Position numbers and translations under genes: made by a program. From Pseudomonadota bacterium (GTDB lineage Bacteria > Pseudomonadota > Gammaproteobacteria > Burkholderiales > Rhodocyclaceae), in the NCBI GenBank assembly GCA_963205435.1, contig CAUJIV010000099.1, positions 1 through 64,000 on the forward strand: a DNA stretch of 64,000 nucleotides, read 5' to 3'. Positions within the stretch are counted from its first letter, which is position 1. Each line of letters starts with the position of its first letter. The notes under the pieces were generated by a model. The model worked only from the letters and a program-made list of their open reading frames with translations, did not search any database and was not told the DNA's origin. Positions 56,840 to 63,401 of this stretch are shown in pieces.

Positions 56840-58408
56840 TCAGCCGCGGATCAGGGCCAGCACGTTCTGCGGCAGCGCATTGGCCTGCGCCAGCATTGCC
56901 ACGCCGGCCTGCTGCAGGATCTGGGCGCGAGTCAGGTTGGCGGTTTCGGAGGCGAAATCGGTATCCTGGATGCGTGAGCGCGACGCCGTCAGGTTTTCCG
57001 CAGTGGCCGCCAGATTCGAGATGACCGAATCGAAGCGGTTCTGGATCGAGCCGAAGGTTGCCCGCAGATTATTGACGGAGGTCAGCGCCGCGTCGACTCG
57101 GGTGATGGCAACGTTGGCATTCGCCACCGAAGTGACCGAAACCGAGTTGAGGGCCGAGGCGCCAAGAGCCATCGAGCTGTTGTCGGCATAGCCAATATAC
57201 GCTTCATGGTTGCCGGACAGCGTAATGGCGTCGGTAGAGGTCAGACGGATGGTGCCGCCGAAAGTGTTCGCCACTGCCACGCCGCTGGCCATTGTGATGG
57301 CCGTTTTTGCATCGTTGCTCGAGTTATTCTCTCCTGCGGTCGTATCACGGAGGCCGACGCCAATTACGCCGCCGGTGGCATCCGCATCGGTTGCCGTCTG
57401 GGATACGGCAATGTTACGGCCATCCGACGCGTTCAAGGTCAGCTTGCCGCTGCTGAACGTGGCCGTCACTCCGGTGGCGGCGGAGTTGGCGTTGATCGCA
57501 TTGGCCATCTCCGCGCCGGTGATGGTGACTTGCGAAACACCGTTATAGATATTGGTGCCGTTAATGTTGAGGGTATAGGTATCCGTAGCTTGAGTGCTGG
57601 CCACTGACGTATAGTCGAATGTCACCGTGGTATCGGCAGAGGCGGTCAGGTTGGGCACGCTGGCGTTGTTGATCGCCAGAACCTTCGAGTAGGCACTGCT
57701 TGCCGTGCGGCCGGCATTGCCAGCACCTGAGCTATTATCGGCAGAAGCGCCGATGTTGACGGCGGAGTTGGAGCCGACCGTGATAGTGAGGTCGCCGGAT
57801 GCCAGGGCGTTACCGACGTCCACGCCGGTGCCCTGCTGGCCGAGGGCTTTGCTGGTGCTGTAGGCGGTAGAGCCGTCCACATAATCGGCAGTCTTGCCGA
57901 TGGCCGTATAACGCATGCTGGTGGAAAGGCCTACGGAAATGGTTTCGCCGACGTTGGCGCCAACCTGGAAAGTCGCCGTGCCAAAGTTTCCGTCAAGCAG
58001 CTTCAGTCCGTTGAACGAGGTCTGCACGGCAACGCGATCAATCTCGGACAGGCGCTGCTGAACCTCGAGATCCAGCGCGGCGCGGTCGGAAGCGCTGTTG
58101 GTGGCGTTGGCCGCCTGCACCGCCAGTTCGCGGATGCGCTGCAGGTTCTGGGTGATTTCGCCCAGCGCGCCTTCGCCGGTCTGCGCCAGGGAAATGCCGT
58201 CGCTTGCGTTTCTCGTGGCCTGATTCAGGCCGCGGATCTGGGTCGTCATTCGCTCCGAAATGCCCAGGCCTGCTGCATCGTCCTTGGCGCTGTTGATGCG
58301 CAGACCGGTGGACAGGCGCTGCAAGGCGGTGGCGAGGGAACTTTGCGAAGTGTTGAGGTTGCGCTGCGCATTCAGTGACGCGATGTTGGTGTTGATGATC
58401 TGAGGCAT
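56840..58408 (-). CDS. fliC: Flagellin
   Basis: [64 protein letters not shown]...; C-term [38 protein letters not shown]. Confidence 0.98.
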
Positions 58409-58497
58409 GATCTGTCTCCAAAGTAGTGAGAGGGTTCTGACAGCCTCACGCCCCCTGACTCCCGATCCGGTTGGCGTTGATGTTGCCGTCAGGAGCA

Positions 58498-58524
58498 CTA
58501 TCGGTAAGAAATGGAAAAACTTTA
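58498..58524 (-). promoter_or_regulatory. Sigma28 (FliA) promoter of fliC
   Basis: Minus TAAAGTTT-N11-ACCGATAG. Confidence 0.88.
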
Positions 58525-58595
58525 GGAAAACTCATCGGTACCGGCCTCTAGTTCGTTGATAGATTGGAGGTTTGTGTTTGGCAGCAAAAAATCCT

Positions 58596-58622
58596 TCAAG
58601 TTTTCTCAACCCGTGCCGATAA
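58596..58622 (+). promoter_or_regulatory. Sigma28 (FliA) promoter, divergent from fliC
   Basis: TCAAGTTT-N11-GCCGATAA. Confidence 0.82.
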
Positions 58623-58628
58623 TGCCTG

Positions 58629-58710
58629 TACACGCGGAATTACGTGCAGGGCTGAGAAGTTCTCCTGACTCCCAGGAAAGCCGCCGGCAACCCCGGCGGT
58701 TTTTCTTTTG
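58629..58710 (+). ncRNA. Candidate sigma28-dependent small RNA (~80 nt)
   Basis: Between a FliA-type promoter (58596-58622) and a strong rho-independent terminator (58682-58710); contains short hairpins GAGAAGTTCTC and TCCTGACTCCCAGGA. Confidence 0.5.
58682..58710 (+). terminator. Rho-independent terminator
   Basis: CCGCCGG-caacc-CCGGCGG followed by TTTTTCTTTT. Confidence 0.88.
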
Positions 58711-58898
58711 CAAAAGTCAGTCACGGCAGAACAGCGCCGATGAAAAAGACGGTTTGCCGACGCACCGCTCCCTTGGAAACCACCTGGCAGCCTGTCTTCA
58801 AGGCACGGGTGACAGCTGAGCGGGAAGTCCGGCGGAAAACCCGGAAAAGATGCCATTTCGCATGCGAAACAGTTAGACTGTCGCACAAGAGGTACTTC

Positions 58899-59141
58899 AT
58901 GATCGGGAATATTGAAAACCTGATCCTGGAACATCTAAAGACGATCCAGGCCGAGCAGGCCGCCGCACGCGAGCGTGACGCGGAGGTCCTAGCGCGCCTG
59001 TCGAGCATCGAAAACGGGCTCGCGCGGATCTCGCGCGACGAGGCCTTGACTTATACCGAATTGGTTCAGGATCGGCATGTCGTCGACAAGCTCAAGGAAC
59101 GTATTGAGCGCATCGAGCGGCGCTTGGAGTTGAGCCAATAA
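58899..59141 (+). CDS. Small coiled-coil hypothetical protein
   Basis: MIGNIENLILEHLKTIQAEQAAARERDAEVLARLSSIENGLARISRDEALTYTELVQDRHVVDKLKERIERIERRLELSQ. Confidence 0.75.
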   Translation: MIGNIENLILEHLKTIQAEQAAARERDAEVLARLSSIENGLARISRDEALTYTELVQDRHVVDKLKERIERIERRLELSQ

Positions 59142-59188
59142 AATCCTGAGCCTGCAAAAGTCAGTCGCCGCGGTACGGCGCGCGAATC

Positions 59189-63328: not shown

Positions 63329-63401
63329 GCCGGCATAGCTCAGCTGGTAGAGCAGCTGATTTGTAATCAGAAGGTCGCGGGTTCGATTCCTGCTGCCGGC
63401 A
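63329..63401 (+). tRNA. tRNA-Thr (anticodon TGT)
   Basis: GCCGGCATAGCTCAGCTGGTAGAGCAGCTGATTTGTAATCAGAAGGTCGCGGGTTCGATTCCTGCTGCCGGCA; cloverleaf pairs, anticodon loop TTTGTAA; CCA not fully encoded. Confidence 0.95.

Follow-up and report, generated by a model that had tools for sequence, protein, structure and literature searches.

The flagellin gene fliC of the 64,000-nucleotide window (the whole stretch of DNA analysed here) is adjoined by a divergent unit that is predicted to encode a sigma-28-driven small RNA (sRNA) of ∼80 nt, and this sRNA probably pairs with the fliC mRNA, most likely lowering flagellin translation or mRNA stability. Because the sRNA is complementary to the start region of the fliC messenger, it probably limits flagellin output. 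The window comes from an uncultured anammox-reactor bacterium of the family Rhodocyclaceae with a 2.5-Mb, 85%-complete assembly, whose nearest named relative in our genome set is Candidatus Desulfobacillus denitrificans (AP021857, labelled G002). Twelve genomes, all from the Rhodocyclaceae genus Candidatus Desulfobacillus, keep the unit, and it is divergent from flagellin in every one. Coordinates of the features discussed are given in Table 1.

Table 1. Features of the fliC locus and the adjoining sRNA unit, in window coordinates.
Feature	Position	Strand	Basis
fliC, flagellin, 522 aa	56840..58408	-	PF00669 + PF00700
fliC Shine-Dalgarno region and AUG; target blocks in relatives	58406..58422	-	
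Second target block (B) of fliC leader, TCAGAACCCT	58431..58440	-	
Predicted fliC-leader hairpin (TGACGGC...GCTGTCA), conserved, containing block A	58437..58492	-	RNAalifold, 12 leaders
Target site (block A) in fliC 5′ leader, GGGAGTCAGGGGG, 43-55 nt upstream of AUG	58451..58463	-	
fliC sigma-28 promoter, TAAAGTTT-N11-ACCGATAG	58498..58524	-	
sRNA-gene sigma-28 (FliA) promoter, TCAAGTTT-N11-GCCGATAA	58596..58622	+	pattern match; recognisable at 12/12 homologous loci
Predicted sRNA, ∼80 nt, 5′ end placed at roughly 58627-58630	58627..58707	+	covariance model, fold, conservation
5′ hairpin CACG...CGTG, loop 6-8 nt	58631..58646	+	
Seed (block A), TCTCCTGACTCCC, complementary to fliC leader	58661..58673	+	13-bp helix
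Intrinsic terminator, core stem 58681-58699 plus T run	58675..58709	+	conserved in aligned relatives

The preliminary description had proposed a near-consensus FliA promoter facing away from fliC, a strong intrinsic terminator after ∼80 nt and no plausible open reading frame (ORF) between them, and all three elements were recovered. The promoter letters at 58596-58622 on the forward strand are TCAAGTTT-TCTCAACCCGT-GCCGATAA, with a spacer of exactly 11, and this is the sole match to the pattern TMAAGTTTN11SCCGATA in the whole 2.5-Mb assembly; the reversed pattern, used as a control, gave no matches in the 11 genomes tested. The terminator stem, CCGCCGG-CAACC-CCGGCGG (58681-58699), is followed by TTTTTCTTTT, and the fold of 58627-58707 is better than that of shuffled sequences (z = -2.8). 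The only ORF across the unit (58556-58819, TTG start) is not credible, since it starts ahead of the promoter and an indel disrupts its reading frame in relatives; no frame is conserved in the unit. With its own promoter and terminator the unit is intergenic and is not derived from an mRNA untranslated region (UTR). Judged by its sequence, the locus has the make-up of a short, terminated, non-coding unit with a sigma-28 promoter directly upstream. Mean column identity is 85% in the sRNA alignment (10 sequences), and the sRNA shows too little covariation for its hairpins to be proven. A scan of the window against Rfam gave nothing at the gathering score except a tRNA at 63329, and ctRNA_p42d and sroD scored below threshold (21-22 bits versus 50). 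The terminator with its U tail is compatible with an Hfq-dependent sRNA; hfq was found in the genome of the window, and 15 of 16 genomes have Hfq.

The promoter-to-terminator stretch was recovered by BLASTN in nine relatives of the same genus at 74-91% DNA identity, which rules out a chance origin of the unit. In G002 (AP021857) the corresponding stretch is 2126364-2126448 on the minus strand; the public RNA-seq set DRA009157 is shallow, with 2937 coding reads (PMC8402940). A covariance search for homologues next to fliC, suggested in the preliminary description, returned 10 genomes at E ≤ 6e-17, all of the same genus; the model (R1) matches the window at 58623-58708 with E = 1.5e-18. No credible copy was found outside the genus when 399 genomes of the family were searched. 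Weak matches there (E ≥ 9e-5) had neither the promoter pattern nor a seed nearby and were set aside as terminator look-alikes. A pattern scan of GTDB added FeB_8 (L084) and L091 to the carriers, and a further match in an Acidimicrobiales genome (L088), having neither a sigma-28 promoter nor the CCTGACTCCC seed, was dismissed as chance. L091 (JACFMR010000081) is filed as Opitutaceae; its contig bears the Desulfobacillus flagellin locus together with the sRNA and is therefore probably mis-binned. No match to the unit was found in plasmid records or viral contigs.

Among 16 same-genus genomes searched, the sRNA was found in 10 of the 11 that bear flagellin and in none of the five that lack it, three of which are at least 98% complete. 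FliA scored above its family cut-off in flagellin-bearing members of the genus only; it is present in eight relatives and was not found above the cut-off in the window's own 85%-complete assembly. The flagellin start could be placed at 19 other flagellin loci of Rhodocyclaceae, and at the thresholds used none of these had a divergent sigma-28 promoter upstream of flagellin. The locus labelled L140, from another Rhodocyclaceae genus, has a second sigma-28-like promoter ∼100 nt upstream of the fliC promoter on the same strand. The flagellin tree was poorly resolved and was left out of event counting. The earlier proposal that this locus encodes a free-standing sigma-28 sRNA divergent from fliC is supported by the conservation and synteny of the unit, by its co-occurrence with flagellin and by its absence from Rfam.

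Every one of the 12 sRNAs contains CCTGACTCCC, and the fliC 5′ leader contains its complement, GGGAGTCAGGGG, over 13-14 bp (block A). The complement is exact in 11 of the 12 leaders; that of G006 has a one-base insertion, which amounts to a one-base bulge. In the window the block A helix comprises 13 bp at -28.3 kcal/mol, and uninterrupted helices across the genomes span 13-14 bp at -28 to -34 kcal/mol; for nine of the ten genomes tested, at most one of 300 dinucleotide shuffles did as well. When the window was cut into 1278 tiles covering both strands, this helix strength was reached only by the sRNA's own antisense and by the fliC leader; a 140-kb sample of G002 contained no helix as strong, and GGGAGTCAGGGG is otherwise nearly absent from these genomes. 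The preliminary description named no target; the fliC leader is the evident candidate target of the predicted sRNA. The contiguous-helix test was preferred because long GC-rich regions all reach approximately -35 to -40 in whole-duplex energy, and by that measure the window's pairing is unremarkable (40 of 500 shuffles reach it, and 11 of the 51 gene starts in the window equal or beat it).

One relative, G013, has flagellin and its sigma-28 promoter without an sRNA between the GGDEF gene and fliC, and there block A is altered to GGAAGTCTTGGGG with the adjoining leader blocks retained. This change is consistent with relaxed selection on the site or with an ancestral condition that predates the sRNA. 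G013 is a single case, G006 also deviates at block A yet keeps the sRNA, and the fliC leader is largely conserved anyway, outside the target too. Block A sits within the predicted leader hairpin, for which little covariation was seen across the 12 leaders (RNAalifold), and this hairpin may hide it.

In eight of the 12 genomes the sRNA also matches, collinearly, a middle leader block and the fliC Shine-Dalgarno sequence. Read against the leader antisense, the order is GCATG opposite the start codon (in some genomes), the Shine-Dalgarno block, the middle block and the seed, with the sRNA's CTCCTTGC standing opposite the fliC Shine-Dalgarno GCAAGGAG and its AGGGTTTTGA opposite the leader block TCAAAACCCT. 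The loop of the 5′ hairpin is anti-Shine-Dalgarno-like (CUCCUU and variants) in most relatives and not in the window's species. With the seed left out, seven of the eight genomes with a CAAGGAG-type ribosome site showed collinear complementarity that at most 7 of 2000 shuffles matched; pairing beyond block A was not significant in the four window-type genomes (the window's species, G001, G002 and BROCD). Block B pairing is likewise largely intact in the eight CAAGGAG-type relatives and mostly lost in the window's species, in which only the seed helix remains strong. When sRNAs and leaders were cross-tabulated, high scores arose only where both were of the CAAGGAG type, so both partners have changed; the two types are two groups of related genomes, and this therefore represents few independent events.

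Given these collinear block matches, the sRNA has the appearance of an antisense copy of the fliC start region that has since diverged. There is no overlap between the sRNA (58627-58707, forward strand) and the promoter or leader of fliC (58409-58524, reverse strand), and a cis-encoded antisense RNA was rejected since the sRNA is not transcribed from the DNA opposite fliC. It is possible, if on balance doubtful, that the sRNA arose as an antisense duplicate of the fliC start that acquired a sigma-28 promoter, and that the window lineage later lost the parts blocking the ribosome-binding site and kept the seed.

In the mechanism we favor, the sRNA would be made from its sigma-28 promoter at the same stage as fliC, and its C-rich seed would pair with GGGAGUCAGGGG in the fliC 5′ leader. 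The pairing would be longer in most relatives, where additional blocks, among them the anti-Shine-Dalgarno hairpin loop, would engage the leader as far as the ribosome-binding site, and for genomes of the CAAGGAG type we infer directly that this site would be covered. The outcome would most likely be reduced flagellin translation or mRNA stability, probably with the help of Hfq, and the circuit would form an incoherent feed-forward brake on the costliest late flagellar product. Block A itself is too distant from the AUG for direct blocking of the ribosome, and since the window's species retains a strong helix only at this position, 43-55 nt upstream, no direct block of the ribosome site is expected there. 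Action in that species might instead proceed via remodelling of the leader hairpin, masking of a standby site or an RNase, and activation is possible.

An sRNA that pairs with the fliC leader and activates it, by opening the conserved hairpin or stabilising the mRNA, is unlikely overall. Such a role would suit the placement of block A inside the conserved predicted hairpin and the pairing in the window's species, which lies 43-55 nt ahead of the AUG and leaves the Shine-Dalgarno free; in E. coli, fliC mRNA and flagellin are raised by UhpU and MotR (PMC10578931). However, eight of the 12 sRNAs carry a loop resembling an anti-Shine-Dalgarno that lines up with the ribosome-binding site of fliC, which points to repression. 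We give rather little weight to the idea that a protein shared by both sigma-28 units recognises the motif in DNA or RNA, with the RNA having another role or none. CCCCTGACTCCC does form a direct repeat on the forward strand, with a copy downstream of each promoter. The resemblance is not confined to this motif, however, but covers several blocks ordered as antiparallel pairing needs, and no known protein with such a site was identified.

C-rich seeds often bind many mRNAs, and other messengers could be the main targets, with the fliC leader serving as a sponge for the sRNA during fliC expression. In both the window and G002, comparable whole-duplex energies occur at other gene starts, but exact 12-mer targets elsewhere are few, the three inspected were mostly coding and not common to several genomes, and no conserved second target was seen, making this improbable. 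Least plausible, to the point of being scarcely credible, is that the unit is a short 5′ leader or attenuator of a downstream gene, or merely the terminator of the convergent GGDEF gene. An 80-aa ORF does lie downstream in the window (58899-59141), and in relatives the GGDEF gene can use the terminator, which could act on both strands where that gene converges on it. The start of this ORF, though, was found in the window's species only, and in eight of the 12 genomes the next gene is the convergent GGDEF gene, within tens of bases of the terminator; read-through into 58899-59141 as an mRNA leader, the alternative named in the preliminary description, is thereby disfavored. Promoter, hairpin and seed are, moreover, as conserved as the terminator.

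As the preliminary description notes, sigma-28-controlled sRNAs are established in E. coli, where UhpU, MotR, FliX and FlgO are UTR-derived (PMC10578931); FliX lowers and MotR and UhpU raise flagellin, and several pair within the fliC coding sequence (PMC10578931). The predicted sRNA resembles this set in its sigma-28 promoter and its complementarity to fliC mRNA, but is free-standing and divergent from fliC, and it matches the fliC 5′ leader, extending in relatives to the ribosome-binding site. FlmR (CJnc170) of C. jejuni is a FliA-dependent, unprocessed, non-coding RNA of 47 nt whose overexpression gives shorter flagella and lower motility (PMC11187230). The sRNA described here shares the FliA promoter and non-coding nature; the presumed targets of FlmR, however, are class II (RpoN) genes, flgE among them (PMC11187230), whereas the putative target here is the leader of the adjoining flagellin gene. 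Like cis-encoded antisense RNAs, the sRNA has a body resembling the antisense strand of its target's leader; unlike them, it adjoins its putative target without overlap and would act in trans. The S17 sRNA, from a paper that names Ca. D. denitrificans, was considered and rejected as a counterpart, being an RNase E-processed RNA from a sigma-A promoter transcript.

The open-access literature yielded no case of a free-standing sigma-28 sRNA beside fliC that matches the fliC leader, and Rfam holds none, in keeping with the earlier remark that such an RNA appears undescribed. The unit would be a flagellar sRNA in a group for which none was found described, acting on the flagellin leader itself while encoded beside its target under the same sigma factor, and would place a very costly filament protein under a compact feed-forward circuit. 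The duplication origin, if true, would mean a trans-acting regulator made from a copy of its own target. Twelve related genomes and one flagellated genome without the sRNA make both the target-derived origin and the co-evolution of seed and site directly testable.

The small ORF at 58899-59141 has a weak, sub-threshold Pfam match. A dispersed repeat, GACTGACTTTTGC, occurs in 66 exact copies in G002 and in 36-49 copies in three other genomes of the genus, with no copies of the reversed control. Copies of it at 58710-58722 and 59154-59166 (reverse strand) flank this ORF, and the segment, which lies between the sRNA and the GGDEF gene, looks as if it had been inserted.
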